Shown here in pieces: positions 13,664 through 43,954 of a stretch of DNA of 64,000 bases. Both the position numbers and the translations under genes were made by a program. The number at the start of each line of letters is the position of its first letter. Positions within the stretch are counted from its first letter, which is position 1. Under the pieces are notes generated by a model. It ran no database searches. It saw nothing but the letters and a program-made list of their open reading frames with translations, and was not told the DNA's origin. The stretch lies in assembly GCA_032433595.1 (NCBI GenBank), contig JASWJB010000203.1, positions 1 to 64,000 on the forward strand, given 5' to 3'. The stretch comes from Conoideocrella luteorostrata (lineage: Eukaryota; Ascomycota; Sordariomycetes; Hypocreales; Clavicipitaceae).

Positions 13664-16148
13664 ATGATGGACATGCAGGAAGTGATATCGGCCGAGGCGG
13701 CAGCAAGTTCGGAACGATCGAGGAAGCGCCTGAGGACTTCCCACGCGGTAAGCAACTTACGAGGATGCGACTGGGGTTCTCCAATCCACTATTACGCACT
13801 CTCAAGAAAGGGTTGGTTTCTGATATCGTACCTTTTTTTAAACAACAGTGTGATGTTTGCCGTAGCCGCAAGATAAGGTATTCTATCTTCTGTTGAGGGA
13901 TCCAATGAAACATGCTGACCGAATGTGACGACAGATGTGACGGCAACGTCCCTTGTGCTACCTGTGTTGCGTCAGACCAGACATGCGCGTATGGCTCTGA
14001 AGCCAACTCGTAAGATTGCTTAAACGGGCGGCCATAATTGGATCGCCAATGCTACAGTTGAATCTTCGCTAACAGTGAGCGCCTAGGCGTGGAAAGACTG
14101 ACTTGGTGCTTGATGGAGTCTTGCGTATTGAAAGAGCTCTATGTGAGATACACTCTACTCTTGTAAGGGATCGATTAGGACTAGCACCTGGATCATATGC
14201 TGAATAAATGATAGGCACAGCATAGAAATGGGAATGGATCTCTCAAAGTCCATCCCGTACCTGCCACCTCTCCTGCCGCCGTCCCGGCGTCAACCAGCCC
14301 TTACGTCGACTCATCTCCAGTCACGGATGCCGGATCTGCTCGTACGTCTCATCCCAATTCTAGGACACCAAATAGTGGACATGATAAAGGGCAGGACAAA
14401 GGCAACAGTTTCGAGAACGCAGTTATCGATTCCATGCATACTTCCACTACTGAATCGGTTCTATCATGGCCTCACTTTGATGTTTTCCCCTCGTTGCGCA
14501 ACGACTATGTTACCATCTTTCATTTAGAGCAGTCGCGCTTCTCATTACCAATCAAACAATCAACAGTCTATCCATATGTTACGCCAGAGGACGTCAATGC
14601 TGTTCTTGAGTCTTTTGAGCTCAATGTTAACTTTTGGTATCCAACCATGTCTCAGCGTCAGGTTGGGCAGACACGAACAATGCTTAACTCTGGAGTGACC
14701 CTTGACGACAGCCTTGATGCGTGCCTGGCCTTGCTGACTATGGCCCTCGGATGCGCCAGCCAGGTCACCACCGAAATGGAAAACGCGAGCGATATATCAG
14801 ATGAAGAGGTTAGGCGGAGAGCGTCAAGACGGCAAATGGGCGATGTTTACTTTGATGCGGCGCTGAAAAAAGCCTATGTAGCTCATCTTGGCGTGACTTC
14901 ATTATCAGCGCAATGTCTCTTCTTTGTTGGGTAAAACGCCGCCTCCGATTGACTGGATCAAACTTATGCGTAACGTTACTGACATCAAGAAATAGGTTGT
15001 ACTTCGCCTTTCTCGCGAGACCCCTTCAAGCCTGGGAGTATATTGGTGCCACGGCGGCAAAATGCATGCTGCTTTTGTCATATCCACCCGACCACTCATC
15101 TCACGAGGATAGAGAGCGCACGAGAAGGATATTTTGGTCTTGTTATATACTTGAAAGGTAAGATAGCCAGGCCTGGCGACTCCAATTTCCAAGAAGAAAA
15201 ACCCAAGAAGAAAGAAGGCTAATAATAATCCTTGAAAGTGACTACATTGCTGAACTGTCTGCGAACCCAGTTTCTGGCATCTCTCGGATAGAGTCTTCCG
15301 TCCCCTTACCGGCGTTCTACAATACCCACGCTGCTGTTCCGGATGAAGAGCAATCTGCGCTTTATTTTCTCGCCTGCATTAGTATGAGAAGACTTCTCAA
15401 TCGCGTGCACCAACTCCTTTACGCGCATGATACCGGGGCTGCACTCGATACGGCTCGCTTTCCACTCATAGTGGCAGAGCTTCAGCATCAGCTCGATGAA
15501 TGGCGCAATTGTCTGCCACCGACATTCGCATTCACAGTGGACACGCAACCAGCAGCCAATGCGGCCAGCGGTTTCCTAAGACAGAGATACTTGGCCTGCA
15601 GAAGTGTCATCTATCGACCTTATCTAATGTGGCTTCTCAGTGGGAGTCGAGGAGATTTCGACGATTTGAGCCAGGATGCTGGAAGTAATTGCAAAGAATG
15701 TCTGGATGCATGTCTGATGCACATTCTCAACCTTCGAGGGTTTTCGCAGACGGTTCTTGTCGATTCGTGGATCTGTTCACTTTCGTGGGTGTCTTGTCTC
15801 TTTCATCTTCAAGTGCTAATTGATGGTGAGATACTAACGGGTAGTAGCATGGCTTGCGCAATGCTAGTTCTGTTGGCTGCATGCCGCGTCCCGCATTTAC
15901 GGAGCTTTATTGACCAGGATGTCATACTAGCCGGTGATCATCTTAAACAGCTCTTAGGGGGGTGGCAACGAATTGTGGGAGGCCCGATAAGCCCTAGTGT
16001 TGAGCAGAGCATTCGAATCATTCAGGAAGCGGATAAGTTTATCCAAGAGGCGTGTCAGCCGAGCCCAAGACGGGGCTTTTCATTGCCGGAAAAACATACT
16101 GCGTCTCCTACTAGTCATGATTGTGGCGGCTATTCTCGCGGATGGTGA
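13664..16148 (+). CDS. Zn2Cys6 transcription factor with fungal_trans domain, 7 exons
   Basis: The model is join(13664..13747, 13849..13877, 13935..14009, 14087..14162, 14221..14930, 14996..15157, 15239..16148), giving 681 aa. All six introns are GT..AG and in phase. The zinc cluster has the exact spacing CX2CX6CX5CX2CX6C (Cys 29, 32, 39, 45, 48, 55), preceded by a basic stretch SRKRLR. A linker helix (LVLDGVLRIERAL) and a Ser/Pro-rich spacer follow. The fungal-specific regulator domain has TRRIFWSCY, SDYIAELSANP and a LYFLACI helix. The exon-4 acceptor TAG|GC was chosen because it restores the linker frame. It is the third gene in the block after the permease, so it could regulate lactose use, but that is inference. 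Exons 2 and 4 are very short. Confidence 0.87.
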
Positions 16149-17533
16149 GTGCGAAACCTGACCGGAATCGCAAAATTTGCAAGATACCTATATATCTACA
16201 GCATAGGAATGAATGGGAAGATGTAATCCGTAGAGTGAAGCTGCTCACTACTCGCGGACTGTGGGATACCAGGGGTACACTCTTTTGGAGTAAAAAAACA
16301 CAAAGTTCTATTCTGTAATCTCCGCACAAAGGGTATAGCAATACTAGCAGTCGAATTACAGACCTATCTGTGACTAGGAATATAAAATGTGGACAACTAC
16401 GACGCTCTTAGACATTGTCAAATTCCTGCACCTACGTACACAACTTGTAACTGGCGCTTGTTTGAGTGGTTATACGGGTTGTCTGTGAGCGAGTCTTGTC
16501 TCTGGTGGTCATGTATCAGTCCTATATGCTGGATGTGCATCTTTTTGCTCCTTGCTTAGACAGCACAACATACCATGAGTTCGCGCAGGGCATGAATATC
16601 TTTTGTCTATTGTAGCAGCTGTTCTACGATTAGATTGCTTGTAGGAAAGTCGACCAGCTGAATAGCCCATCCCTAATTAAGCGGCATGGCACAAGGAATC
16701 TTCGCTTGGTCGATGCTGGCCTTGGTGACGGCAATATGAATTCGAATCGCGTATCGGTTGTGGCTTCTGGGCATTAACGCGGACGTTATCTTAGCCCGTA
16801 GACTAGAAGCAGGCAAGCGCCAGCTAACCACTTTATCCTGCAGCGAAGTCGGAAGCCCCAGGATGCGTGACTAAGCGCTTGATGGGGCATAAGCGGGCAA
16901 AATCTTTGATTTCTTCTCTGCCGTGATGGGATTTTGTGGTGTCAGTGGCGGCGGTACAGCAATGGCACGCAGCTCCTTCCGTCGTGCGTCTAAGCAGTTG
17001 CGGCTCCTCGGGCAGTAACACTCTCAGGAATATTCAGGAACCAAGTGGCCCGTGAAACTCTGTCTCATCGGCATCTATTGATGGCGAGGTGGTAAGGCTG
17101 TTGAGGCGAGAATCGTTTCTGTCAGGAACTTCACTACGGTAATAGCTGAATTAGTGATGGAATTGAATAAATAGTTGGACGAGCCGTTATGTGACTGCAG
17201 GTGCGTTTTAGGTGGGCGAGGAACTCTCATAAAATCGCAGGAAATTACCGGACAGGGTTCGAATTTAGAGGTCTTGATTCTGGAGACAAATTGAAAGAGG
17301 TTCCCCGTGGATTGGGACGGCGGCGGGCACATACAAAGCGGCAATTGTATTGATGTGGTATTTGTCACCATGTGAACTTGCTCTATGGTTCTGGAACTCA
17401 TGAAATTAACAAAATAAAGCGCTTTCCACAGAACATTAAGCCAATTCCGATGTCTTCAAGATCGCGTCCACGATTTACATAGGTATGGCTCGGGGCTGTA
17501 CTCTAGGAGCCCACGCAGCGGCGGTAGGTTAGT
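16149..17533. other. Intergenic region
   Basis: No intact gene is visible. A roughly 60-bp sequence near 17092-17155 recurs elsewhere in the window and is listed separately. Nothing else was recognised. Confidence 0.55.
17092..17155 (-). repeat. Copy 1 of a dispersed ~60-bp sequence
   Basis: GTTGAGGCGAGAAT...CTGTCAGGAA...TAATAGCT resembles sequence near 20545 and 61405. Read on the minus strand all three can encode a variant of FLTGAILVST, a hydrophobic peptide, so this may be the decayed 3' end of a small membrane-protein gene family. Confidence 0.45.
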
Positions 17534-19204
17534 TTAGAGATATTTAAACCCGTTGTTCACTATGGTTCTTGGGACTCCAGAACCACTTTTGCGCTTTGCA
17601 ACAGCCCGCTTTATAGAGTTCTTGGAAATGTAATTGCAAAGTGAATCAGGCTTGGACTTGCCCAGGCTAAGGAGATAGGCGCCTAAGCCGGCAACATGAG
17701 TAGTGGCCTGTGCGGTACCGGAACCTAGCGCGGAACGGTGGTCTGGAACAGTACTGGGAATTAAGAAACCAGGGGCAAGAACATTCGCACTCTGGTCCCA
17801 ATTGGAAAAGGGAGCCAATTCATCTGACTTGGCGGTGGCTCCAACGACGCAAGCATAGTTCTTGGAAATTTCCGTTACGTCTTACCGGTCTCCATCGGAG
17901 GCAGCGACGACAAAGATGCCGCGCTGGATCATGTTTCGAGCGGCGTCGACCAAGGGCTGATGGTTCGAGCTATATACAGGCGTATACATAACCAAGCCTT
18001 TGGGGCATGATAATTCGCGAGTAGCCGCATCTCTGACGATGAAGTCCATAGCTTCGATGATTTTAGATCTAGGTAATCAAGAAATTAGTTAGATACTCTT
18101 GCCACCTGCAATTTAATAAGGTCTGCTTACGTTAAGGCAGTGCCATCTGAATTAATTGCCTTAACGCCCAGGAGAAATGTCTTTTTAGCAACACCGTACG
18201 TAGTTGATCCAATAATTCCCGCAACGTGAGTGCCATATCTTCTATCATCAGACGGTTGTTCATTAGTAAAGTTCTATATGAACTAAACGCGGCCAGAGAA
18301 TTCCTATTGACTTGTTTAGACTCAGTATAATTAGAAGGGGTTGAGAAGAAGACTAACTGGGTGGGTCTTATCAAGCCCTGAGTCGAGTACATAAACGCAT
18401 GTACCCTTTCCAGCTTCCTCAAAATACATGTATGAGTATTCTTTGGCTTTCGATGAGATATCTTGGCAAGATCCCAAGGAGCATGTTTCTGCCTCTTTAC
18501 ATCTCTACCGTTTATTTTCAAATTAAGGTGTGCGGTTTTAGTTGAGGTTGTTTTCGTAGTTTCCGTATGTTTGCTTATCTCGCCCTCAGGGTTGTTTAGA
18601 CGATAAACAACCTCCCCATTTTTTGTTTCCGGATGAATTCACCTGAAATGATCATATTATTCGGATATGTCACCTAATCGCAAGTCAATATTTCAACTTC
18701 TTAGAGGTGTAACTAATCATATTGATATTACTCTGCTTTCCTCTTTCACTGTTTGTTTCTCTTTTCTTAAGTTGTTGGTTTCTCGACGTAGATTGGTTGA
18801 ATATCAGCCACGTGGCTTAGTACGGACCCATCATATAACTTTATATCTGGCGAGACATATGCCACCCTGTTGCGAGAGTTAACGATCCCAAACGTTTTTC
18901 TTAGCGGCAAAACCAACCAGATAGGTTCATCTTACACCAGGGTCTGCCTCAAGCTTATTCTTCTGCTTGGGTGTCAAACTCGCGACAAACCGCGCAAAAC
19001 ATCAGAAAAGCTCTGGTCAGACTTTACACCAACGGAAGCAATCACACTATCCGCATTAGCCTCCATTTTATCGCGATTCATGACTGTAATATACTTGCCC
19101 TCAATCGATTCGTCATTGCGCGGCTTAAGCGCTCGAGGGTATTGCTGCTTGGAATCTACACTAACCACGAGTGGAAGCAAGCCCAAAAGTATGCTAGGCA
19201 GCAT
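17534..19204 (-). pseudogene. Decayed secreted subtilase (proteinase K/Pr1-like)
   Basis: Pieces of a secreted S8 peptidase can be followed from a signal peptide (start at 19204) through an I9-type propeptide (GKYITVMNRD) to the catalytic domain and a C-terminal block. The Asp motif is preserved (YVLDSGLDKTHP). The His motif reads RYGTHVAG, so the catalytic His is Tyr. The Ser motif reads GTAQATTHVAG, so the catalytic Ser is Ala. An in-frame TAA lies at 17882-17884 in the oxyanion-hole region, and the frame shifts between the HAPWDLAKIS block and the EAGKGTCVYVLD block (about 18420-18480). Two of three catalytic residues plus the reading frame are lost, so it cannot be an active protease. The rest is well preserved, so decay looks recent. 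It is unrelated in architecture to the intact subtilase at 21223. Confidence 0.8.
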
Positions 19205-19901
19205 TGAGTTAAAAGAGGCCACAGAATGCGACAAAGAAGGCCTTTAAGATGAACAGATGTTGTCACACAAAAAATGGCGTAGCCAGAGGCCACTTTTAAT
19301 GTGTAGTTATGACCCTTTAATAGGCTCATATTTTCCTGAGACAGATGTCATCTTAGAGTTAGTTTCCTGTTAAGATTGTAATTTGAAGTTTGCTTTTGTC
19401 CAAGCGTGCCTCCTATTTTAAGAATGGAAGTACTTGAAATATGTTTACAAGACGATAGACAATACAAGTCTAATGACTCAGATACATTGAATGGGATAGA
19501 ATGCCGTACGACTTTGTGTCTTCTTATACTGTATGCCCCAAACCTGCCTATGGATCCGCGATTGGGACAGATGTTATTTGCCGGGGACATGTGGTCCAAA
19601 AAAAAAGTTGCGGCGGAGCCCGAACAATAACAATCTATCAGTTAAATCTACCTGGCTGTCATGGGTATCCAAAAAAAGCAATAATACCGAAAATGGCCGG
19701 CTTGTGACCGGCGTAAAGCAGGCATTGAACAACTAGATCGGCTTCAGGAACGAGTCTTGTCTATTCCCTGTTGGTTGGTTTTAATTTAGCTAAAAGGAGA
19801 GCTCAACGCAGATAATCTCGCTTGTTGGCTAGGCCGGGTCGGTTAGGCCGGGGCGGACGTGAAAGTGCAAACCATACCGTTATCAGTCTCAACCCGATAC
19901 G

Positions 19902-20103
19902 GAGCAATTGCAGACAAAGTCACGTGGCCACCCTAGCGCGCCTCATTTATACAGCGCGCTCGGGGGCATTTCTTCTTCCTCTTCTTTCTTAGATAACCCA
20001 GATACAGATGAATTGAATTGTTCTGCTTCTTGTTCTGCTTCTTGTTTTGTTTCATCTTCTAGTACCGATACCCTCGTCACTCGAAGCCCCTGTGCTTCCT
20101 ACA
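19902..20103 (+). mobile_element. Solo LTR of copia-like family 2, 5' end diverged
   Basis: It is collinear with the intact solo LTR at 33865-34079 on the opposite strand. Shared blocks are CAATTGC-GACAAA, CACGTGGCCACCCTAGC, GCGCGCTCGGGGGCATT, a CT-rich stretch ending TTAGATA, and the terminal GTGCTTCCTACA. The first ~35 bases of the family (starting TGTTGGA) are not recognisable, so no target-site duplication can be assigned. Confidence 0.65.
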
Positions 20104-20503
20104 GAAACCTTTCAATGTGCTGGAGGGCACGACTTTGCCAAGACGGGAGCATGGGGATTGCGGCTGGTAGATCCGGGCACAGCCGCTAGTTAGTTACTGT
20201 TCGCTCCCCATGCAGACACAGCTTAACCCTGCACGAGTATTCCCACCACTATCTCCTTGAGGCCCGTAAGGCTCCTTTCTTGAATCCTGAGTCACGTTCC
20301 CCATTTTTGCCCTTGTTTTGATAGCAACTTCTAGTGACCCTCGCAGTATGCTAAACTTGCTGTCTGTAATGTAGCCATCTGTAGATAATGAACTTTCTGA
20401 AACTTGTATCATCATATAAAATACGTGGCAGATAGAGTAATCCGTACCTTTATTTTTATTGGTTCTGTTGGTTAGACTGCCCGATTAATACAAAAATGGA
20501 GCC

Positions 20504-20734
20504 TTACGGGGCCTCGAGGAGATAGCTGCAGAGCGTGCGTTGGACAGCTGTTGAGACGAGAATAGCTCCTGTCAGGATGATCAGCGCCATAAATAGCTCA
20601 AATCCTCGGATAGTGAGGCAGTGCCTCGGATAACGGTGCAATGCAAGGAAGGCAGAAGACATCGATAGAATGAAGAAAGGTGCTATAAATAAGAGGCTTT
20701 TAGGGCTCTTCAGGAAGGCGAGAACAACGGTCAA
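20504..20734 (-). pseudogene. Possible relic of a small membrane protein
   Basis: A minus-strand frame contains two hydrophobic segments (SLLFIAPFFILSMSSAFLAL and MALIILTGAILVST) separated by a basic loop. No family was recognised and neighbouring exons were not found. The second segment recurs in weaker form near 17.1 kb and 61.4 kb. It is probably the 3' part of a decayed gene. Confidence 0.3.
20545..20605 (-). repeat. Copy 2 of a dispersed ~60-bp sequence
   Basis: GTTGAGACGAGAATAGCTCC...GTCAGGA...AATAGCTC. This is the copy with the longest surrounding open frame. See the copies at 17092 and 61405. Confidence 0.5.
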
Positions 20735-21222
20735 TCAATTCAATCATCTTAAGCTATCACCGATCTATTCATTTGAATCCATCTATTTCTGCCGATTTAC
20801 ACTGATCCAAGTTGCTCTTGAATGCTCATGAAGGGACATAACGCAACAACAGCCCGCTAAGCCAGGCTTCCGACCCTCCTTGGCTGGCAGTGCAATTGGC
20901 ACCCAAAAGGCATTCAGCCGGCCTGGGTGATTTTTTGTATTAATTTGTAATTGAATACGGGAGGCAATTCTTGTAGGTATATGCAACAAGAAAAAAGAGA
21001 ACTTGAGAGCTTAAGATGGGTCAAATTCGTCATCAGCTTCATTAACGTAAGCTTACATCGAATAATTCTTGACATCATTCCCAGTGATAATTTCCTGGTG
21101 ACGCTTTCTACCCAGCCTCCTCAATTTCTCTCCCGACCTCTCTATTATCCAACAAAAATTCTGCAACCCTGACACGATACCTAGGTTTTAGGTTGGGTAA
21201 CTGCCAGAACAAGCTGTATTCC

Positions 21223-24079
21223 TCAATTAGGATAAATTGCAGTGATCCGTTCCGAGATCCTGTTCGCTATCGATGGTAAGGTCAATTTTTCCTGGCCGTC
21301 TAATCCACTTAACAACTTCCATGGCTCGATTAGGTTGTACACTCCAGATTCTTGCTTCTCAGTCATACACTCAAACAAGATATTTTCCATGACGCGTTTA
21401 TTCTTCAGCTTCCTCGCCCGAGTCACAGCTCCTTTCCCGCTCTGTCTAGCAAACTGCAAGACAAGAGCGGCAACCCCCGCGGCGATGGGGGTCGAACAAG
21501 ATGTTCCCGTTTGCCTTAGGACGGCCTCCCTATCCGCTAACCCAGTTGGCCACGCACCTTGGACGTTTTCTCCGATGGTGCTAAAATTGTACTTCCCTTG
21601 TTTACCAAGCTTGCAGAATCTGGATTGGATAGTCCGAGTCTTGTTAGAGTATATACAGAAGACTTCTGGGAGACAGGCAGGGAAGCCAAGTTTTTCATCA
21701 GTCTTGTTGGATGCTGCCGCAAAGAGAAGCACCTTGTTGTGATAATTGTCGATGGCCTCCTCGATTTCCTCATTTCTATACGGAAAGGCAAATGGCATGA
21801 CGATGATGTCGACCTTCCACTTGTCCACGGCGTATTTGATTGCCTATGTCCCCGTGATTAGCCATAAATGATATGAGTGAGTGGCTGGGGGACCACAAGT
21901 CATACGTCTGCAATTAATTTTCCCGTATTATCCTCTTCTCGTCTTGCTTTCCAGACTCTCCCACAAAATATCTCAGCCTGCGGTGCCGTCTTCGCCAGCA
22001 AATAGGCTGTGTGAGTGCCGTGCCCGACTTCATCGCACATATCGCCAGTATTTTTGACGAAATCCCTGCAGTTTTTACTTGGGACCCTTTCGCTGAGTAG
22101 TGGGTGTTGAAGATCGATGCCGGTATCAAGGATGGCGATTTTCACTTCTCCGCATTTTAAACTCCGCATAAGCGTATGGGTCTCCTGCTTAAGCTGTGTA
22201 AACCATTTATCTGATTCGGTGTTCCTGGAAAAGGTCAGTAAAAAGACCAAATTGCGTGTTTTCTCTGCGTCTCACATTAGTGGGCTTTGCTCGAGAGTCT
22301 TAACGGTGGACTCGTCGAAAATGACATCAGCTAGCGGTGTGACACCAGAGAGCTCTTGTTCCAAGTCCTTGAACGTGGCCTGTGGGCCTAGCATGGCAAG
22401 GAGGTTCTGCTCCAGTGGACTCACAACCTTCTGATATATGTCCCACATCCCAAGGTGGGGTGCCTGTGGCTCATAGTTGGCATATGTTCCGACAGCTAGA
22501 CAGGCTCTCATTGACACAACGAAGTTCTGTTTTGCCCACTCATCTTGGTCCAATTTCTCCACTCTGCTCAGCATCTTCGATGCTTTTAGAAGGTCTGAAT
22601 GTAGATTTTGAGTAAAATCCGGTGGGACCTGATATTCCTGTAGTTCTAGCTCGATGAGAAATCTTGCAAGTGTAACCATGTCTGGCATTGGGTGATAGTT
22701 TTGGTGAAGCTTTGCAGGTCGCCTACTGCTTTGTACTGCCATCCAGTAAGCGGCGAGGTAAGGGCGCCTGAAGTTGAATAATGCAGGGCCGCCGTTCCCG
22801 TCCAATTGGTAGAAGGAAATATCAGCACTATCCCAATACTGCTTTAGCCAAGGACCATCAAGCAGTTGCATGAAGGAGTACATCAAAATCACAGCTAGGA
22901 TCCTTCTTTCTCTTGGACGAAGAATAACACGGTCTTGAAGGATCTTTTGCAGCGACACACGTTTTCCAGGTTCATCGGACGCGACATCAACCGAAAAGAA
23001 TTCAGCGGCGAAGCCTGCAGGGGTGATTGGGGCTGCAACAATCTGCAGCTTGAAACCTCGTATACCATCAAAAAGAGCCTGGCATGGATGATCCAGCTTT
23101 ATTGCAGCCAACGGTGTAGGACTACTAAAATAAATAAGCCACTAGTAGTTTCCTGAAGCATCCATGCTTACCTCTGGGTTTGAATCATGATACTGCAGTG
23201 TAGAGGAGCTGATTCATGTTGCAAAATCATGTCATACTCCCCTTTGGCAAGTTTTGGGTGTGTCCAACCTGACTGAAGACATAGCATGATGTTCATGCAA
23301 CTACCGAGTTTATTTTCATGATCAGCTCCGCATGGACAAGGCCAGTATTCGCGTAATAAGCTATGGAGATCCTCATAACCACCGCATCGCGACAAGTAAA
23401 ATCGGAAATCCTTTTCCGAGCCCCACCTGTCCCGTTTCTGCGAGTATTCAGCAGCAGTCGGGGCGATCTCGCTCTGCGGGTTCTCCCGACAGAGGAGACT
23501 GTTAAAGCGGTAGACTAGCGAAGATAACAGCTTAATGCCATCTACGGACATGTTTTTGATGAGTGGACGCTGAATGTCGATTGTTTGTTTGTCTTTTGGG
23601 ATTTTCCGAACTAATGTTCGGAAAGTTTCCAAGTTCGCAATCTTCGACTCGCGACCCTTGTGATGTAGTTAGTGCGCCGGGGCTTTGAAAGGTTAGGCTT
23701 GTTGGGCAACTTGAAACTCCGCTGTGCTTACATTCGGGCTAGGACTATGAACATAATGGGGCGCAATTTCTCGCTCAAGGATATCTCGTATGCGACTAGC
23801 ATGAATCGTGCTGTTGAATCCTATAGCCACCTCATGTGCTAGAGTGTATAGTTCCTGACTGATTGGACCTTGTTGGTGGTCCATATAACCGTTTAAATTG
23901 AAGTCTAATTGCCAAAGTCGATAATTCAAGTGCTTTCGGTCTAATGTTTCTAGACTTCCATTCTGGAAACGACGGATGAGATGTTCGCGAAGTGTGCCGA
24001 TAATGTCTTGAAGCAGCTCTAGGAGCTCACAGGGCTCTTTAGGCAGGTCCACCAAAAGCTTGGCCTTTGGCTCGTCCAT
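21223..24079 (-). CDS. DUF7580-subtilase (S8) protein, cytosolic, 5 exons
   Basis: The model is complement(21223..21843, 21906..22224, 22276..23124, 23172..23656, 23732..24079), giving 873 aa with every junction in phase. The start is the ATG at 24079 (MDEPKAKLL); a longer upstream frame exists. Residues about 1-250 are helical and unassigned. Residues about 260-540 match the fungal DUF7580 type (RERRILAVILMYSFMQLLDGPWL). The C-terminal third is an S8 peptidase with all catalytic residues: Asp594 in ILDTGID, His629 in GHGTHT, oxyanion Asn713 in AAASN and Ser782 in GTSCSTP. There is no signal peptide or propeptide, so it should act in the cytosol. DUF7580 coupled to an S8 domain is known from fungal incompatibility/NLR-like proteins. 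It is divergent, 292 bp away, from the gasdermin-like gene, which is its likely substrate by analogy with HET-Q2/HET-Q1. Confidence 0.88.
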
Positions 24080-24371
24080 ATTGCGCGATGCTCGCGATAT
24101 GGGCAAAAATCTGAGCAGCAAAAGCGGAGCAAAAGTCTGCGCTGTATCATTAATGTTGATTAGGACCATGACCAAGTCTCCCCGCTTCGCCGCTCATGTG
24201 AACCGTTTGCTTATCTAACCAATCAAGGAGGAGATAGCGCTGACACAATACGCAGTTCTACCCGCCTCGTAAGAAAACCCCGCTCCTCTCAGCCTGATTC
24301 GAAATGTTCAGAATGCCAACTCAAAATAACGCACTCTCGGCACTCTCGGCACTCTCGCCCTGTCGCCCATT
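24080..24371. promoter_or_regulatory. Divergent promoter of subtilase and gasdermin-like genes
   Basis: The 292 bp between the two start codons hold a three-copy 9-bp tandem repeat (CACTCTCGG) at 24332-24358, only 13 bp before the gasdermin-like ATG and so probably in its 5' UTR. The compact shared promoter suggests co-expression. Confidence 0.55.
24332..24358 (+). repeat. Three tandem copies of a 9-bp motif
   Basis: CACTCTCGG is present twice exactly (24332-24340, 24341-24349) and once with a final C instead of G (24350-24358). It lies immediately upstream of the gasdermin-like start codon. Confidence 0.85.
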
Positions 24372-25196
24372 ATGAGTCGGACCTACGATGGATGGATCTT
24401 CACGAAGACGCGTAAATTTGCGTCCGATGGGCGCCTCCAAATCGGCCAGGTCCTAGGCAAGCCGTTCCAGCCCGAGTCGGCACTGATGCCGCGTGGGCCA
24501 CTTCCAGTGCCCAAGGATGTGATCATGGATGAGACGGAAGATAAAAATGTTTCTATTTCCTCCGAGAGCGAACTCAAAGTCTTGTTCCGTATGTGGGCAG
24601 AGCTTAATCCTGTCCCCGTCACTGGGGAGGCTAATATCCACGTCGACCATTCAGACTCGGCCTCATGGCACTTCGACTCATTGAGGAGCCAACAAATCAC
24701 GCCACCACTTACTTATGTCCAAGACTCAATGGAACATGATGAAGTGCCCCACCACTTGAAAAAATGGCGCTGGGATAGACGAGTATTCATTGTGACTGGT
24801 GTCACAGTTGCCGAAGGGGCAACAACAGCCAAAAAGAATGCACGAGCCGCCGGGTTCAAGACTTTGGCTTCTGGTGACTCATCGGGAACTGGTTCTACTG
24901 GACTGGGAATGGCTAGCGAGTTTGAAACCAACAAAGCTAATGAAGAGACAACTGGCGAATCAAGCAATTTCGTATTTGCATATAGTGTCAACGAGGTCTA
25001 CTATCGTAATATGGCCCATGCTCCATTCCGTAAAGGCGAAGTCCAAAGCGTGGGGGACGACAACGGAACGGAGTCTCGGGATGAAGCACCTGTTACAATG
25101 ATCGAAACTGTTGTTGTCGATGACATAGATGAAGAACCTTATCAGGGCGGCGATGAGGACGTCGACAAGGAAGAGGCTTGTGATGTTAAAGTTTGA
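24372..25196 (+). CDS. Gasdermin-like pore-forming protein (HET-Q1/RCD-1 type), putative
   Basis: A single exon encodes 274 aa, starting MSRTYDGWIF. I read it as a member of the fungal gasdermin-like family, cytosolic proteins that form membrane pores and kill the cell after release of a C-terminal inhibitory tail. Support: the length is close to HET-Q1 and RCD-1 (about 260-280 aa). Beta-strand-like blocks occur at WRWDRRVFIVTGVTVAEGA (about residues 135-155) and NFVFAYSVNEVYY (about 200-213). A short acidic tail (about residues 225-274) follows. Most tellingly, a cytosolic subtilase gene is divergent from it at 292 bp, the typical genomic setting of fungal gasdermins. No signal peptide or classical membrane helix is present. 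The family call rests on pattern memory and context, since no alignment was run. An LTR begins 35 bp after the stop codon. The frame is intact. Confidence 0.68.
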   Translation: MSRTYDGWIFTKTRKFASDGRLQIGQVLGKPFQPESALMPRGPLPVPKDVIMDETEDKNVSISSESELKVLFRMWAELNPVPVTGEANIHVDHSDSASWHFDSLRSQQITPPLTYVQDSMEHDEVPHHLKKWRWDRRVFIVTGVTVAEGATTAKKNARAAGFKTLASGDSSGTGSTGLGMASEFETNKANEETTGESSNFVFAYSVNEVYYRNMAHAPFRKGEVQSVGDDNGTESRDEAPVTMIETVVVDDIDEEPYQGGDEDVDKEEACDVKV

Positions 25197-25231
25197 GGTG
25201 TTAATGGGAGTTAGACGGTTACAACACAGAC

Positions 25232-25435
25232 TGTGGGTTGCACAGAGTGTTGTGCAATGCGGTATCGATACCACTTGCGGTCAAAATGCAATATATTTAA
25301 TAATCTCTGTATATCTAAGAAGAGGAAAAAAGTCAAGGTGGAAGGCTCGATATCGCCGTATAAATATCGTGGCCGAAAAGTGACCACGTGACCTGCTCAG
25401 TGCTCCCTGTTGTGCTTGACGGCAGGATTCCAACA
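25232..25435 (-). mobile_element. Solo LTR, copia-like family 1, copy A
   Basis: In its own orientation it runs TGTTGGAATCCTGCC...CAACCCACA, 204 bp, with TG..CA termini. It carries CACGTGGTCAC and a TATA-like TATTTATACGGCG. Flanking pentamers CAGAC and CAAAC differ at one base and look like an aged target-site duplication. It is closely similar to copy B (32326) in inverted orientation. No internal retrotransposon coding is nearby, so it is a solo LTR. Confidence 0.8.
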
Positions 25436-26245
25436 CAAACAGTCCTATGGCTGAGATCGTGGCACACTGTGGCAGCCACTATTGGGAAGGATAAGCAACT
25501 TACAAGAGACTATTGAGCTCGAAAAGAAGATTATGATAGCACAAAGAGGACCCATAGTCTATAGTAAAATAAGCAATATTGGGGCTCTTTGGTTTAAGGC
25601 GTCACAGCGACAGAGACTGACTCCAATTATGATCATCTAGGCCCAAAGGGCCCCTCACCACTAGTAATAGTAAAGGGCCACAGCTAGACCCTTTCCATAT
25701 ATGAAGAAAGACTCCTCTGCCTTTGCAAGCGACCCAAATTGTGACAAGAGATTAGCTAAGGATGAAAGCATTATAATTTCTCATTGGCCAGAGTAGGTCT
25801 CGTCACTCGGTCGCGCTCAAATATTCTACCAATTTACAGTGACACATGAAAGAAAGCTTAGTAGCGACATTCACGACCGGCGAACCGACCGCTCTGCGAG
25901 TGGTGTTTTAGCAATATTCTCAAGGTGACCTAGTCTGATCCGAAGCACTTCCAATAGCCCAGTAGCATTTGAAGTTTGGTGGTACTATTTCCTACTATCC
26001 AGGGTAAAGTGAGACCCGCGCTCAAGCATTTCCAGTCAGGCCGCCACACACAGCGTTGGAGAGGCCCACCAACCATAGGACAGACAGCCTGCGTGCCTCC
26101 GCCACTCGCAATGAAGATAGCCCCGACTCCGATGTACATTACCTATACCCCGCCCAGCATCCAGTGCTCGCCGCGGCTAAATCACTCACCTGAGTCGTTT
26201 TACGCCGGTATAGAGAGGAAGAAGCGTACGAAGCCCAAATGAACC
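25436..26245. other. Intergenic region upstream of the NLR gene
   Basis: There is no gene or further LTR; it is the presumed promoter of the NLR gene. Confidence 0.55.
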
Positions 26246-29200
26246 ATGGCGCCAGAGAACGCAATTTGCAACAAAGCCAGAGAGTGCTTGGCAGCTTTCA
26301 ACCATTGCATTGAGTCAATGACATCGACGCCATGGCCGCAAGACCAGCTTGACCGGTTCAACCTTTGGGCCGCCCACGGCGGCATCTTTGGAAGTTATCA
26401 GGGACGCACTTCCATGGACTGGCGCCTGCGCGAGCGACCGGAGCTGGTGGACATGATGCTGCAACTTCTAGATCTGCTGCACGAGTATTTGTCTGGTAAT
26501 TTCCACTCTCTGACCGACAACCTCGTGTTGCCATAATAATGCTTGATAGCAATCTATACCTTGGCCGATCCCGTAAGCGATCCCGTAAGCGATCTCAAGT
26601 TTCATGCCGGCAGGACTATCACCGCTACACAAGATGCAGGCCACCAGACTCAGCCACCTTCATCTCACACATCAGCATCAACTAGCTCATCAGAATGTTC
26701 ATTTGGTCTGGGTTCTGAAAAGCTGTCTGTAGTTGCAGATCCAGTCGATACAATGCGGGGGAAGGTGGAGCAGACAATTGCCGAACTTTTCAGAATCTCT
26801 GCAGCCATCCGCTCTGCCGGGATGAGCTACAGATATACTAAAGCGGCAAACTTTGTCGAGTGGCAAGATGGCGTGAATTTAACACTAAGATTCAAAGAAG
26901 GCGTAGAGTTGCTGTTGCGATACAAGAAACCTTCCCCCAGCGACTACATGGTGAAGCGGCTGGTTGAAACTGTTTGTTTACGGCAGAGGGAACTCGCATA
27001 CTCCCGCCGCAAGGGGATGGGCAGGAGCGGAAAGGAAGCGACGGAAGAGTCCATCAAATCCGACGGCGTGGCAAGCCTTCCACAGCGATCTACGGCTGGA
27101 TATCCCGGACAATGCGGCTCTGGTTCAACCATGTCCAAAATTACTCCCACAGCTATAGGTGCATCGCGTGAAAAGACGGCGCAGCCTAATACAGTTCAGT
27201 CAACAATATACACCGCCACGTACGTGCCTACAACGGTTTTTCCTCAAGCAAAGCCTGTGAAGACCTTGATAACGCGACCGCAGTGGCGTACAATAGACGA
27301 TTCCCTCACCAACCTTCCGCTATCACCAGAAGTGGGCGCAACGCTGGAGTTCGAATGCCCTTACTGTGCCATTCCGTTCGAAAGGACAAAATTCCAAGGA
27401 TCCTCTTGGAGGTATGACATGATGTACTCTTTTATTGCCCTCTTAATTTCGAACGTCTTTTGTAACTGATCCTCTTTAGAAATCACGTTTTGGAGGATCT
27501 TCGACCATATATTTGCATTCTGCCCGACTGTATAACACCACATGCCTTATACCAAGACAGCATTTCATGGATCAGCCACATGCAGACGAAACACAAAGTG
27601 GTAAAGTGGAAATGTGTCTCATCGTGCCACCCAGAGATACAGGCCTTCTCGACGGAAGCAGAATTCTTAGCACATACCGAGTTTGAACACAAAGAAGACT
27701 TCACAACCGAAGAGATGCTGGAGCTGGCAAATCTTGGAAGATACGAGATCACTCGCGAGCTTGAGGTTGACATTTTGCCAAAGTGCCCAATATGTATGAT
27801 CTCGTTCGAGAGCGAAGACTTTTTGAGTGTATACAGCCACATCGCTGAAGATCTTGTGGATTACGCTCGGATATCCCTCCCCGAGTCCCCACATGCCGAT
27901 GCAAACTCGTCCCAGGAAGATTCTTCAAAGTCTGCAAGCGTCGACGATGGTAGGATCGGTCAAAGGCGTGAAAGTGAGATCGAGGCCAACAGGATGTTTC
28001 CATGGTCGTTGTGGGATTTCGATAGCCCAGAAACAAGAGGAGATCTCGACTGCTACGATGATGGCCTCAATCGCATCCCAGATCCAAGTAATACCGATGT
28101 TGCAGTGTTGGCTGAAATCCGATACGATATTTGCAACGCAAGGCACAAACGTTTGCAGAAGAAGCCTGATCATAATCTACATTTGCTGAGACAATATAGA
28201 GAAGAACCTAATCCACACAAGGACGAAGATATGACCTTTTTTTTTAAAGACCCAGCGTTGCATACTAAAACTGCTAGTAACTTACCAGATCACCAATCCC
28301 AATCATCGGTTGAGGACTCGCAGAGCGAAAAGACCGACGAAGGGGTCACAACCATTCCTATGCTTCAGAGCTTCAATGATCACACTCATCTTCGAAAGAA
28401 TCATACTGGTATCGTATATGAAAACTATACTGTCGGGTGGATATGCGCCATAATCACAGAGTACGTTGCTGCACGACAATTTCTCGATGAAGAACATGAA
28501 GGACCAGTACACGTGTCGCTCAATGACAACAATGATTACACACTAGGGAAAATAGGGAAACACAATGTCGTCATTACTGTCTTGCCTCCCGTGGATCATG
28601 GCGCATCACCTGCTGCAAGTGTCGCAAGAGAGATGCTGCATAGCTTTCCTAATATGAGATTTTGTCTGATAGTCGGCATTGGTAGCGGTGCACCGAGCAA
28701 AGGGCATGATATCCGCCTGGGCGACATTGTGGTTGGCACTCCTCGATATGGGGAGGGTGGCGTGCTCCCGTACGACTTCGGCAGAACCATCCAACATCGG
28801 AGCCTCCAACACATCGGTGTTTTAAACCAGCCACCTACAGTGCTACTGGAGGCGGTGAATGAACTCCAGGCAAAGTACGAGATAAATGGCCACAGATTTG
28901 GAGAGAACATAGACAATATTCTTCGAAAGATGCCAAGGCTGCAGAAGAAGTACAGCCGGCCAGACCCAAGCAGTGACAGACTGTATCAGTCTAAAATTAT
29001 GCATTCTGCAAATAGCGACTCAAGCTGCGTAGCATCCTGTGGTACTGATCCATCAAAGCTGATACAGCGAACTGAGCGGACTCAAGACAAAGATAATCCG
29101 GTAATCCACTACGGCGTCATTGCCTCGGGAGACCAACTGATGGAGGATGCCTCGGTTAGGGATAAGCTTGCCGCAGAAGAGGACATTCTATGCTTTGAAA

Positions 29201-32200
29201 TGGGAGCGGCGGGGCTTATAAACCAGTTTCCTTGCCTCGTAGTCTGCGGTATATGCGATTACTCGGATTCTCACAAGAACATGGAGTGGCAGGGCTATGC
29301 AGCAATGGCGGCTGCTGCATATGCGAAAGATCTTCTTTGTCAAATAACCTTAGCCAAGGTTGAAGATGAGAAGACGTTCGGCGACATTCTATCCGGTAAT
29401 TCCAGGCGTTGCAATTATATACAATGAAAACATGCTAATTTCATGTACAGGTCTCCATAAAATTCAGGGAGAGAATTTGGACATTGCAAAAGAGCAGCTC
29501 CAAACCCAGAAAGAGCAAGAGTGTCACCAATTGTTCTGCCTCACAACTGACGACAGCGGCACATACGAGTGGTATAAAGACCGAGTAGAAGAAAGGGATG
29601 TAGGCACGTGCCTGTGGTTCTTGCAGCACGAGCACTTCCAGAGTTGGCTGAAACAGGAGACTGGCCCCTTGCTGGTAACGGCAGATCCTGGCTGCGGAAA
29701 GTCGGTGTTGGCTAAGTACCTGATCGACCACGCCCTACCACGATCGACAACTATTTGCTACTTTTTCTTTAAATACCAAGACCAGAATACCGTCCGCCAA
29801 GCGCTTTGCGCGCTGCTTCACCAGCTCTTCTCTCAGAAGCCGTTACTAATTAAACATGCTATGGCACAATACATCAAGGATGAGCAAGATATGATAAACC
29901 GGACAGAATCGCTTTGGAAGATTCTACGAAACGCTATAAAAGATCCTAAGGCAGGACCTATAGTTATTGTCCTCGATGCCGTGGACGAATGTGCTGAGTC
30001 AGACTTTTTGGACCTGATGCGGAATGTAGAGAGCCAATTCCATAACGACCAGTCTGGCCAGGGCAAGTTTAAGTATCTTCTAACATGCCGCCCGTATGAG
30101 CGGATCATATCTAAGTTCAGCGGCCTGTTGTCTGCCTTTCCAATTAGCTATATACCAGGAGAGGAAGAGTCGGACCACATTAGCCAGGAGGTGAATCGCG
30201 TCATTACGCGTCGGGTCAATCAGCTATCGGAGGTGAAGCACCTCCCGTCCATGATCAAGAGCCACCTAGAGAGAAGGCTACAAGAGATTACCCACCGTAC
30301 TTATCTCTGGGTATACCTCGTGTTCGAAAGCCTAGAGAAAACAGGCTTTAAGAAGACATTAAAGGGCATTGACTCCATGATCGCAAATCTCCCGAGGAGT
30401 ATCATTGAGGCATATGAGCAAATTCTCAACCAGTGTTACGACAAGGGACGGCAGATGGCTCGGAAAGTCTTCAGTATTATTTTAGCCGCGAGAAGGCCGC
30501 TAGCACTCTCGGAAATGAACGTTGCTGTGAACATAGATGCCAGAGCACACTCTATTAATGATCTCGACTTGGAAGACCAAGTGGCCTTTAAGAGTCGTCT
30601 TAGATCTTGGTGTGGACTCTTTATCTCAGTTCATCATAACAAGATTTATTTCCTTCATGAAAGTGCTCGCGAGTTTCTCTTAGCACAGTCGGCATCTCCA
30701 ATAGATGTTCCGTCGAAGCTGCATTGGCATCACTCCATTACTATTTGGGACGCACACGCTATTCTTGCAGAGGTCTGCGTTCTTTATCTTAACTTCTTCA
30801 ACTCCGACATTAGCCTTCGGACAGATGTGTACAGGAAAGCCAGCCAGTCCGTCAATAGTCGAGCCTTCTTAGCCTACTCGGCCCAAACTTGGGGCAGTCA
30901 CTTTCGCGAGGCTCGTTTCATGGACGATGCTAGTATTGTGCCTTTCGCTATGAGAATTTGTGATACAGATTCGGAGAGTTTCTCGGCATGGTTTAAAATT
31001 TATTGGAAGTCCACAGGCTGGCAGGCTACGAAGGATTTTACGGATCTTATGGTGGCAGCACATTTTGGACATAATGCCACTGCCAAGGTGCTTGTCGAGA
31101 AAGGTGCTAAGGTCAACGCGAAGGACAGCGGGTATAATAGAACTCCGCTCTTATGGGCGGCCGGGAACGGGCACGAGGCCGTTGTCAAGCTGCTGGTCGA
31201 GAACGGCGCCGACATCGAGGCGCAGGATAAATACGGTCTGACGGCGCTGTTGTTAGCCGCCGAGAACGGGCACGAAGCCGTGGTTACGCTATTGCTCGAC
31301 AGGGGCGCTAACGTTTGGCTGAAGGATAAACACGGTCAGACAGCGCTGTTGCCAGCCGCCGGGAACGGGCACGAGGCCGTTGTCAAGCTGCTGGTCGAGA
31401 ACGGCGCCGACATTGAGGCGCAGGATAAATACGGCCAGAAGGCGCTGTTGCTAGCCGCCGAGAACGGGCACGAAGCCGTGGTTAAGCTATTGCTCGACAG
31501 GGGCGCTAACGTTTGGCTGAAGGATGAACACGATCAGACGGCGCTGTTGCTAGCCGCCAAGAACGGGCACAAGTCTATTGTTAAGCTGCTGGTCGAGAAA
31601 GGCGCCGACGTCAAGGCACAGGATAAATACGGTCAGACGGCGCTGTTGCTAGCCGCCGAGAACGGGCACAAGGCTATTGTTAAGCTGCTGGTCGAGAGAG
31701 GTGTTAATATTGAGGCGAAGCATAATAAGAACGGCTGGACAGCGCTATTGCTAGCCGCCAAGAACGGGCATGAGGCCGTTGTCAGACTGCTAGTCGAGAA
31801 AGGCGCTGATATCGAGGCAAAGCATAATAACAACGGTTGGACAGCGCTGTGTTGGGCCGCTGAGAACAGGCGCGAAGCCGTGGTTAAGCTGTTACTCGAC
31901 TGGGGCGCTAACGTCGAGGCGAAGGATCAATTCGGTCAGACAGCGCTGTTGCTAGCTGCCAAAAACGGGCACGTGGCCGTCGTTAAGCTGCTGGTTGAGA
32001 AAGGCGCTGATGTTGAGGCGAAGCATAATAATGACAGTCGGACAGCGCTATGGTGGGCTGCTAAGAACAGGCGCGAAGCCGTAGTTAAGCTATTGCTCAA
32101 CATGGGCGCTGACATCGAGGCAAAGAATCAACACCGTCAGACGGCGCTGTTAGCAGCCGCCGAGTACGGGCATATAGCTGTCGTTAAGCTGCTAGTCGAG

Positions 32201-32311
32201 CAAGGCGCCGATGTTGAGGCAAAGGACATATACAGTCAGACAGCACTGTTGCTAGCCGCCACGAACGGGCACAAGGCAGTCGTCAAGCTGCTGCAGCGAA
32301 GGTCTCGATAA
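26246..32311 (+). CDS. NLR-like protein: C2H2 - PNP_UDP - NACHT - ankyrin repeats, 4 exons
   Basis: The model is join(26246..26495, 26550..27411, 27480..29395, 29451..32311), giving 1962 aa. The three introns (54, 68, 55 bp) are in phase. The order of parts is: an N-terminal region of unknown fold with Ser/Thr-rich linker (1-340); paired C2H2-type fingers (CPYCAIPFERTKF... and CPICMISFESEDF); and a nucleoside-phosphorylase-like domain from about residue 687 (YTVGWICAIITEY, GDIVVGTPRYG, EMGAAGLI). Next comes a NACHT STAND NTPase with Walker A ADPGCGKS (about 1088-1094) and Walker B IVIVLDAVDE (about 1180-1189), and finally 13 ankyrin repeats (about 1538-1960). This is the standard layout of fungal NLR receptors for allorecognition and immunity, where ankyrins sense and the N-terminal domain signals. 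Gene order places it beside a subtilase/gasdermin-like pair. The last ankyrin unit stops abruptly, and an LTR begins 14 bp beyond the stop. Confidence 0.92.
31036..32305 (+). repeat. Ankyrin array, 13 units of about 99 bp, highly homogenised
   Basis: The units encode TALLLAAxNGHxAVVKLLxxxGAxxEAKD variants of 33-34 residues. DNA identity between neighbours is high. A two-unit (198-bp) segment near 31150-31345 is nearly identical to the next one (about 31348-31543), including the unusual GANVWLKD unit. Such homogenisation is typical of fungal NLR repeat arrays under concerted and diversifying evolution. Confidence 0.85.
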
Positions 32312-38055: not shown

Positions 38056-39048
38056 TCAACATAAATCAGACGTACATCCTACTGTAGATCCTCTCAAATT
38101 TGTCCGATCCTCTAGGCTCGTAGGAGTCAACTCAGAATCATCTTCTTTGCAATACCAAGCCTCGCCATGCTTCTGACCATGCGCATCGCTTAGAACTTGT
38201 TGTTTTAGCTTTCCCGGGTCTATTGTGACAGACATTGCAGTCGCTTTCTTCTTCACCCGAAATTCAACATCATTAAACCCCAGATTAGCAGTGAAACCGA
38301 ACCTCATCTTGAAAGCCCTCTCAACATTGTACGTGACGGCTATCGCGAATCTCAGTTGCTCTGGCACTCCCTGCCGCAGTGCCGCATCCTCCTTAACCTG
38401 CCATTTCACAATCGTCGTTTTGTCTCCATCACGAAGAGTGCGACCAATAACTTTGACATTACAGCTTTCAATGAACTGGGTGTTGTGTTGTCGTCGCATG
38501 TTGACGACCGGTTCAACCAGAGAACCACTCATCATCCCAATGCCTGCACCAAAAGTATTGGAAAACTCGTGCTTCACCTCCGTGGACTTGCCCGTGAAGC
38601 TTTCGGGGCAGAACATTACGATCTCTGGGGCCATTTTAAACCGGCCACCAGAGTCCTCGAACTCCACAGAGACATCGACTGACTTGAATCGCAGCAGTCG
38701 TCGGATCCGGTGGTAATGCTCGTCGTCAAATGTCTGGATCTCAAGGACCATGAGGCACGCGGGTGCGCCAAAAAAATTGCAGAGTCGTAATGGTCGTTTA
38801 AGAGATGCCCGGACACGCGAGTGCGCTATCAGGTTGGCATAGGTTTCGCCCTCTTCTTTGCATGTTGACTCTGGGTCAACACTGGCGTCTTGGTCACCAC
38901 CGGTAGAAAGATAGCCCGACGCCGCATTGTAAATCTCGAAAGGCACAAGAAGAACTGTGTCTTCGGAAAGGTCATCCTCATACAGGCCAGGCGGTGGAAT
39001 ACTAAGCTCTTGAAAGCTATCGGTCTTGACTGGTTGAGAATCCGACAT
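38056..39048 (-). CDS. Conserved fungal protein of unknown function, partner of CHAT gene
   Basis: A single exon encodes 330 aa, ATG at 39048 (MSDSQPVKTDSF). There is no signal peptide and no clear transmembrane helix. The N-terminal ~45 residues are acidic. The middle looks beta-rich: LLRFKSVDVSVEFED, then the motif APEIVMFCPESFTGKST, then a glycine-rich hydrophobic stretch (FGAGIGMMSGSLVEP, about residues 165-180), then VIGR...VKWQVKEDAALRQGVPEQLRFAIAV. I do not recognise a named domain, although the P-E-x-F-x-G and W-x-x-x-E blocks recall uncharacterised fungal proteins found beside NLR-type genes. It is divergent, 390 bp away, from a TPR-CHAT protease gene, the same geometry as the subtilase/gasdermin-like pair, so it may be the protease's substrate or effector. 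That role is inference only. Confidence 0.75.
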   Translation of the reverse strand: MSDSQPVKTDSFQELSIPPPGLYEDDLSEDTVLLVPFEIYNAASGYLSTGGDQDASVDPESTCKEEGETYANLIAHSRVRASLKRPLRLCNFFGAPACLMVLEIQTFDDEHYHRIRRLLRFKSVDVSVEFEDSGGRFKMAPEIVMFCPESFTGKSTEVKHEFSNTFGAGIGMMSGSLVEPVVNMRRQHNTQFIESCNVKVIGRTLRDGDKTTIVKWQVKEDAALRQGVPEQLRFAIAVTYNVERAFKMRFGFTANLGFNDVEFRVKKKATAMSVTIDPGKLKQQVLSDAHGQKHGEAWYCKEDDSELTPTSLEDRTNLRGSTVGCTSDLC

Positions 39049-39438
39049 GTTCTGAAGAAGCGACTTTTTGGATTGTAAGTTTAGAAGGAGTGATTATTCG
39101 GCTCTCCTACTAGTCACAGCAATCCGTTTATTTATGCGCCTTTGTTCGCTCAGGTGCTATGACTTAGTCCATGCAGTGTCCTGCGTAAGCTGCATGAAAT
39201 ATTGGTTCCAGCCGCAGTTGTGGCTGGAAATGGAGTAAGTAATTGGTGGGGTGTCACAAGAGTTTCAGCCGAGCGTGACATCTTGCATCCTCGGGCACCA
39301 TAGATTTCCTGCTGCTGCTGCTGCTTTGGACAAAATCTTTTCAATACACGTACTTAGGCAGGCTACTGTTTCTGAATAATTAAGAGTTTGTGTCTATGTT
39401 CATCTCAATTTAGCACAAACTTATGCGCATTCCGAGCA
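39049..39438. promoter_or_regulatory. Divergent promoter of the 330-aa protein and CHAT genes
   Basis: About 390 bp separate the two start codons. It contains a (CTG)5-type run near 39313. The frame of the CHAT gene is open back to about 39388 without an ATG, and an AG acceptor-like CAATTTAG precedes 39415, so a short upstream exon cannot be excluded. Confidence 0.5.
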
Positions 39439-42400: not shown

Positions 42401-43954
42401 AGTGTAGAGGTTCTTGCCGCAAGGATCAAGAGTCTTGATGAGGAGCAAACCGAAATCAGAAGGAAGCTTGAAGATCGTCTATCTAAACTCAATGATAACA
42501 TCAACGCAAGACCAGAGCTATGCATCATCCTCCAAATCGCAGACTTTTTGAACAAAGAAAAGGAACTGCTAGAGGTCATACAATCTAAAACATTTCTGGA
42601 TCTTCAAGACCGACTGCAAAGCCGAATCAATCTTCAGCGCCTCCGGGAGGAAATGAAAAACGTTCCCCTGCTCCAGCAGTTGCTCAAAGTCCGAGAAGGG
42701 TGGCCGCTGTCCCAAAACGACCTGCAGAAAATGGACAACCGGCGGAACAGTAAAGTTGTCTTTGTCGACTGGTTCAGTACTATAAGTCTCTTCAATACAG
42801 CCGAGAAGATATACATGATACTATGGCGGAACGGGACGTTCAGTCTAGTCGACCTGCATACGACTCTCAATGACATCGCTGATCCTATTCGACAATTCTT
42901 TGAAAACCCGGATGAATTTCTTCCAGAGGTTGAGCCTACGCCTATAAAAGCTATGGATCTCAAAAACATGGTTCCGAAGAACAGGACCAGCGATCTAGCA
43001 GAGCACAGGAAGTTGCGGAGCTGTTCCAAACTAATCGAGCCATTGCTTGATAGCACGCTAGTCAAGCCAGAAGACCTGCTCGTTTTCAGTGTCACCGAAG
43101 GCTTCAATAATTTTCCTCTACACGCGATTAATCACGATGACCACGAACCTCTGATAGTTAATCATCCTGTTGTTTATGTGCCGTCGCTGTCGGTCTTACA
43201 CAGATGCTACTGGTCCCGGCACGGCAAGACGCAGGTGCCACATCCTAAAAAGACCCATAAAGCCCTAGTCCTCGGCGGTGTCCGATGTAGGGATTCAAAA
43301 TACGATTATGGCATGCTTGGCGTCCAGAGATTCGGCGCCCTGCTCAACGTGCCTTGCGACACGTTCGAGGGTGCCGCTGCCACCTTGAGCAACCTTCAAG
43401 CATACATTTCCGACGCAGATCTTTTGCACTTTCACTTGCACACCAACTATAAGCTTTTGAAAGAGGACGCAGGGCATGATGCAGCCTTCACCGAATCGCC
43501 GCTCACTCAAGCCATCTGTTTCACCGATAATGACTTGACGACTCCCAACATCCTGACCCTTCAGCTCACGCCGGGGGCACACCTGAACCTGTTTGCTTGC
43601 GCAAGTGGGTTACAAGGAAAGTTCTCGCACGGAAACTCCCCGTGGGCGGGCAGAACGAACGAGGCGATGGGGTTAGTGCCTGCGTTTTTGATTGCAGGCT
43701 CAGGGTCGATGACGAGCTCATTATGGCCTATCCAGGACGAGCATGCGGCAGTTTTTGGCGGTGTTTTTTGGAAAGCCATCGGTGCTGCTTTAGATAGTCA
43801 TGAAAAAGGCTATAGTGAGGGAGTAATAGGGCAGAGCTGGGTTGATATTGCGGATATAATGAGAGCCACGGTGCTTACCATGAGAGATATGTATGGGTCA
43901 CCTGCCGCATGGGCTGGGTTTGTGCTCAGTGGGTATTGGCGGTTTGAGAAGTAA
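39439..43954 (+). CDS. TPR-CHAT (caspase-like) protease, about 1479 aa, 2 exons
   Basis: The model is join(39439..39849, 39926..43954), with the 76-bp intron in phase 0. The start at 39439 is the first ATG; the true N-terminus may lie in an unseen upstream exon. Most of the protein is alpha-helical with TPR-like units (for example CKLKLLGENERTMSQFKQLL, SRLLHDLVTQ). An acidic/charged linker and a coiled-coil stretch (about 770-880) precede the C-terminal CHAT domain. The domain carries LLHFHLH (His cluster about 1305-1309) and LNLFACASG (Cys about 1362), followed by AMGLVPAFLIAGSGSMTSSLWP, the usual CHAT tail. CHAT peptidases are caspase relatives that cleave gasdermins in bacterial and some fungal systems. 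The frame is intact. Partner choice (the 330-aa protein or the distant gasdermin-like protein) is open. Confidence 0.85.

Follow-up and report, generated by a model that had tools for sequence, protein, structure and literature searches.

HET-Q1 of Podospora anserina is the closest described case of a fungal gasdermin controlled by a neighbouring protease: the subtilase HET-Q2 removes 40 C-terminal residues from it, with a cut at F238 (PMC10989679, PMC12881547). About 63% of fungal gasdermins are described as clustered with S8 genes (PMC10197012, section 15). Here we analyzed a stretch of 64,000 nucleotides (hereafter the window; contig JASWJB010000203.1) from the insect pathogen Conoideocrella luteorostrata (PMC12352038), which at positions 21223..25196 carries two divergent genes: an 873-amino-acid (aa) subtilase gene on the minus strand and a 274-aa gasdermin gene on the plus strand. 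Their start codons are separated by an intergenic region of 292 bp (24080..24371). Independent gene models reproduced exactly the coordinates and the divergent layout given by a previous reading made from the DNA letters (the sequence-only reading). In our analysis the pair very probably constitutes a two-gene regulated-cell-death unit, in which a protease-activated gasdermin is coupled to a cytosolic sensor-protease. The main line of the HET-Q-type cell-death module proposed in that reading is thus supported by the gasdermin profile and by linkage across species and loci, with cleavage as the presumed means of activation.

We first consider the smaller protein. It is encoded by an unbroken open reading frame (ORF) at 24372-25196 (plus strand) and, since it matches 27 database rows at E<=1 (query included), the ORF was taken as a real gene. 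No Pfam match was obtained for it at E<=1. A family profile, composed of the window protein and its 26 relatives, retrieved from the PDB RCD-1-1 (8jyz_A) at 1.9e-13 over aligned positions 84-208 and HET-Q1 (9uv9_A) at 7.5e-8 over aligned positions 18-222, the best non-gasdermin being found at E 0.26. The single sequence also retrieved RCD-1-2 (3.4e-5) and HET-Q1 (1.2e-3). Profile alignment with HET-Q1 and RCD-1-1 assigned residues 1-222 of 274 (24372..25037, plus strand) to the pore-forming N-domain. AlphaFold2 models of both proteins were weak (input alignments of 27 rows for the gasdermin and 9 for the subtilase); in the structural comparison, ranks 1-8 were all gasdermins, a match which, given the weak model, counts as support only. 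Profile similarity therefore places the protein among the fungal gasdermins. The sequence-only reading had reached this call from length and motifs, and it proved right by profile and, weakly, by fold: of the comparisons suggested there, the one by profile did find gasdermin N-domain similarity.

The subtilase model contains five exons on the minus strand, with GT..AG borders for all introns. Exon 1 (23732..24079) encodes an N-terminal region predicted to be helical by the low-confidence structure model and is followed by exon 2 (23172..23656) and exon 3 (22276..23124). Exon 4 (21906..22224) carries the catalytic Asp594 (22125-22127) and His629 (22020-22022), and exon 5 (21223..21843) carries Asn713 at the oxyanion position (21706-21708), the catalytic Ser782 (21499-21501) and the stop codon. 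From end to end, the translated product shows 100% identity with QQS21_008669, a hypothetical protein already deposited for C. luteorostrata. Two Pfam domains were detected: DUF7580 (PF24476, 6.7e-17) at residues 338-519 (22401..22946) and Peptidase_S8 (PF00082, 9.4e-21) at residues 587-810, encoded by two exons (21415..22148 including the intron). Genome-wide searches for the two domains marked the same stretches. Asp594, His629, Asn713 and Ser782 were kept in nine out of nine aligned proteins, so that the triad previously read as intact is borne out by both gene model and alignment. No signal-like hydrophobic stretch was seen at the N-terminus on inspection by eye. With the weak AlphaFold2 model, the best 50 of 683 Foldseek matches were subtilase-type structures; among the same 50 there was no match for the DUF7580 part, most of which had a predicted local distance difference test (pLDDT) score <50.

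We then examined whether the two genes keep together. In all four other named species for which both proteins were found, gasdermin and subtilase were located on one contig, recognized by its length (Trichoderma velutinum 4307291, Thozetella 1606639, Paramyrothecium 507297 and Neopestalotiopsis 248107); adjacency itself is visible only in Neopestalotiopsis, where the genes have the consecutive numbers g3546 and g3547. Paralogous loci in the C. luteorostrata genome agree with this. A genome-wide gasdermin search gave 9 matches at 8 loci, each confirmed by profile at 3e-8 or better, and an S8 match was present within 2.5 kb of all eight (measured from first coordinate to first coordinate), the share of the genome within 3 kb of an S8 match being 1.15%. 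A ninth gasdermin, on contig C291, also has an S8 match within 2.5 kb; because it was found by searching beside a DUF7580-S8 gene, it was kept out of the unbiased count. The nine gasdermin-S8 loci lie on nine different contigs, two in divergent, five in convergent and two in tandem orientation. The 292 bp of the window pair are likewise well below the 10 kb between gasdermin and protease (S8 or CHAT) genes by which a HET-Q/Q2L two-gene module is recognized. For CHAT genes, no gasdermin frame at E<0.1 was detected in nine CHAT stretches or at the CHAT gene of the window; one gasdermin on contig C30 lies ~8 kb from a CHAT match, beyond the CHAT stretch searched. The sequence-only reading had named two outcomes that would speak against it, a fold unlike that of gasdermins and a lack of conserved linkage in relatives; with the profile match and the linkage described here, neither appeared.

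The C-terminal part of the gasdermin showed a contrasted conservation profile. Within the 27-row family, the majority-residue frequency was 0.68-0.75 for four of five N-domain blocks, the fifth (residues 156-190) being low too at 0.55. It was 0.48 at residues 223-243 (25038..25100, plus strand), rose to 0.70 at residues 244-266 (25101..25169, plus strand) and dropped to 0.38 for the last eight residues, 267-274. Moreover, the acidic tail noticed earlier is real: the 52 C-terminal residues (223-274) have a net charge of -16. Eight of the nine gasdermins of this genome could be read as a single frame and all eight end in an acidic tail of 41-68 residues with a charge of -6 to -19. A variable segment followed by a conserved acidic one fits a cleavable linker and an inhibitory peptide, and we accordingly annotate residues 223-243 as the predicted cleavage-site region and 244-266 as the predicted inhibitor.

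The other half of the protease deserves a separate description. A DUF7580 profile was made from 15 own-genome members out of 17 loci, those on contigs C291 and C74 being omitted for a stop inside the matched stretch. Against the PDB, its best 60 of 168 matches (E<=10) were all kinases or pseudokinases, the top one at 1e-4. Taken singly, 3 of the 15 members matched Pfam Pkinase (best 1.2e-5), and the member in the window matched DUF7580 alone. By family profile, DUF7580 is kinase-like. HRD and DFG strings, the motifs of active kinases, were absent by eye from the DUF7580 region of the window protein, which makes it pseudokinase-like. The sequence-only reading had supposed that this half might differ from known examples. 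As S8 protease domains of such systems are described as possibly fused to "predicted kinase-like domains" (PMC12881547) and DUF7580 is kinase-like by profile, this supposition is right only in part; what is added is the domain name, found in no paper of the literature searched. Of some 1500 such proteases, about one in three is described as covered by an annotated architecture (PMC10197012), so DUF7580 may fill part of the gap.

Among the nine S8 genes linked to a gasdermin in this genome, seven have DUF7580 on their own strand, which makes it the commonest putative switch of such proteases at the loci found in the one genome examined. Both domains are in one frame or protein for the window gene and on contig C221; for the other five, neighbouring matches are 0.4-0.8 kb apart and probably belong to a single gene. 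At the eighth S8 gene (C171:45000-51000), ankyrin repeats were matched where the N-terminus is expected, in strand as well as in side. The ninth (C4:321500-326000) has another N-terminus, which begins in a signal-like manner and gave no additional Pfam match. Conversely, DUF7580-S8 genes for which no gasdermin was found are located on C5, C492 and C587, the latter two near contig ends; at C5:6500-15500 no gasdermin was detected though both flanks were covered. Nor was any gasdermin detected at E<0.1 in the stretches searched around DUF7580 loci lacking S8 (C450, C512, C54, C555, C42, C2 and C74).

Both protein identities, the intact catalytic residues, the kept linkage, tail acidity and linker variability are directly established; from HET-Q1/HET-Q2 we infer the cleavage, pore formation and death that would connect them. 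According to this model, the gasdermin would be kept inactive by its short acidic C-terminal peptide behind the variable linker. Its presumed partner would be a cytosolic sensor-protease composed of a helical N-terminal region, the kinase-like DUF7580 and the C-terminal subtilase with all catalytic residues. The N-terminal half would sense a cue, candidates being non-self after cell fusion, a mycovirus or another parasite. The activated subtilase would then cut the gasdermin linker near residues 223-243, and the freed N-domain would insert to form a ring-shaped pore in the plasma membrane, leading to death of the cell compartment. DUF7580 may serve as the sensing or relay part, a role for which there is less support than for cleavage, pore and death.

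How C. luteorostrata, placed in Clavicipitaceae, came to carry this pair is a second question. Trichoderma belongs to another family, Hypocreaceae. The C. luteorostrata gasdermin shares 84-87% identity with those of three named Trichoderma, which are mutually 84-91% identical; for the subtilase, the values are 76-79% with Trichoderma and 76-91% among four named Trichoderma. Four further database rows lacking a species name are 84-89% identical. Paramyrothecium is equally far from Conoideocrella and Trichoderma (53-55% for the gasdermin and 50-52% for the subtilase). As a control we used a GH47 gene of the same window, comparing 14 rows chosen from the best 120 of 5340 matches: identities between Conoideocrella and ten Trichoderma proteins amount to only 64-66%, against 69-93% within Trichoderma. 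The high identity of the pair compared to this control suggests its transfer, that is, passage between the Conoideocrella and Trichoderma lines in either direction. We see about even chances for a joint reading, in which the unit moved horizontally, complete and armed, across families of Hypocreales, with Conoideocrella on one side and Trichoderma or an unsampled relative on the other, and in which DUF7580 is the main pseudokinase-like switch of fungal gasdermin proteases, so that a relay of pseudokinase, protease and gasdermin would be a common form of fungal pyroptosis-like death. If transfer is true, a lethal effector and its trigger can move together; a narrow literature search found no report of such a gasdermin-protease transfer.

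Possible, though not favoured, is vertical descent: an old pair would have disappeared from most other Clavicipitaceae, strong constraint having preserved it here. Two points leave it room and weigh on transfer. The relevant forks of the trees are left open, and there is a single control gene, itself perhaps a fast or patchy paralogue since its top named matches reach 67-68% (Moelleriella and Cladobotryum) and no Metarhizium-named row appears among the best 120 of 5340 matches. Against strong constraint, the pair is not slow. The gasdermin differs by 9-16% within the three named Trichoderma and by 13-16% from Conoideocrella, and the subtilase by 9-24% within the four named Trichoderma and by 21-24% from Conoideocrella. 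The equal distance of both genera from Paramyrothecium and the GH47 values point in the same direction as these rates.

Contamination by Trichoderma DNA was rejected, as the GH47 of the same window is so distant from ten Trichoderma; a chimeric contig is still conceivable. Concerning Starship-type carriage, 17 DUF3435 matches were found in the genome and none on contig C203. No repeats of at least 25 bases were present within 16000-30000 of the window (seed 14). GC content at third codon positions (GC3) is 0.50-0.51 for the pair, 0.56-0.64 for five metabolic or secreted-enzyme frames of the window and 0.60 for the NLR ankyrin frame. Since the PNP frame, the CHAT frame and ORF 38059-39093 have the same GC3 as the pair (0.49-0.51), this measure is uninformative on origin.

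As for the function of the pair, two other explanations have to be weighed against a protease-activated unit. The gasdermin might work in an RCD-1-like mode, fired by a different allele after cell fusion, the protease not being its activator. This would agree with RCD-1-1 and RCD-1-2 being the best PDB matches, ahead of HET-Q1, and with the description of RCD-1 as not controlled by proteolysis (PMC12881547); both facts count against the reading that we prefer. We nevertheless consider it improbable, because S8 is on the same contig in four other named species and near every own-genome gasdermin found, and because the arrangement of a variable linker followed by an acidic tail is retained. Still less credible is that two immunity genes are chance neighbours without functional link, in a region poor in genes but rich in immunity functions. 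The NLR and CHAT-domain genes of the same window do allow clustering to be regional, a further point to our disadvantage, but S8 adjoins eight of eight gasdermin loci in three layouts, on nine contigs with the ninth locus included, and the nine CHAT stretches searched contained no gasdermin frame at E<0.1.

We also examined the neighbourhood of the presumed protease-activated pair. About 2 kb from the gasdermin, at 27490-32308 (plus strand), one or more NLR-like genes comprise a Phosphorylase-superfamily frame followed by a frame with an NPHP3_N/NACHT-type NTPase and ankyrin repeats. A 1374-aa frame at 39830-43951 (plus strand) has a C-terminal CHAT domain (2.8e-17) and is divergent from a 345-aa frame at 38059-39093 (minus strand), with which it possibly forms another sensor-effector pair. 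This smaller frame gave no Pfam match at 0.01, a best PDB match at 1.3 and no own-genome match except itself. It was tried as a second gasdermin and rejected by sequence, being absent from the results of a widened gasdermin profile at E<=5. Lying 0.6 kb after the CHAT gene, a 501-aa frame (44547-46049, minus strand) carries a signal-like hydrophobic stretch and has no Pfam match at 0.01. On the other side of the pair, broken-frame remains of a secreted-type subtilase (17078-19234, minus strand; S8 1.7e-6) look like a decayed gene. The gasdermin pair, the NLR and the CHAT gene, all within 23 kb (21223-43951), make up a candidate fungal defence island. Such islands have been put forward as a hypothesis (PMC10197012, section 15), and the presence of NLR and CHAT genes in the same 64 kb as the pair makes the idea testable here.

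Compared with known systems, the pair resembles HET-Q1/HET-Q2 in combining a gasdermin with an S8 subtilase, in gasdermin length (278 aa for HET-Q1, 274 aa here; PMC10989679), in the predicted removal of a C-terminal piece of ~40 residues and in the extent of the profile match over positions 18-222. Cleavage, described for HET-Q1/HET-Q2, is predicted here, and the pair is not known to act in allorecognition. The protease also differs: with 873 aa and a DUF7580 half, against 388 aa for HET-Q2 (PMC10989679), it does not have the HET-Q2 architecture and corresponds to a longer 'Q2L' protease. RCD-1 of Neurospora crassa is the closest solved sequence to the window gasdermin; it differs in being fired by antagonistic alleles, with no protease, and in its size of 244-257 aa (PMC12881547). 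Bacterial gasdermin operons similarly place a gasdermin beside a protease gene (PMC12881547), and the bacterial gasdermins 7n51, 7n50 and 7n52 occupied ranks 4-6 in the structural comparison with the weak model; none was a significant sequence match, the best listed with the family profile being 7n50_A at 0.39. The clusters of Q2L protease and fungal gasdermin, for which kinase-like fusions are mentioned (PMC12881547), are the same in kind as the present pair. What our analysis contributes to these is a name for the presumed sensor domain, DUF7580, together with its frequency in a single genome, 7 of the 9 loci found. The pair thus offers a long-sensor version of HET-Q with a small gasdermin, which should be easy to rebuild in yeast.

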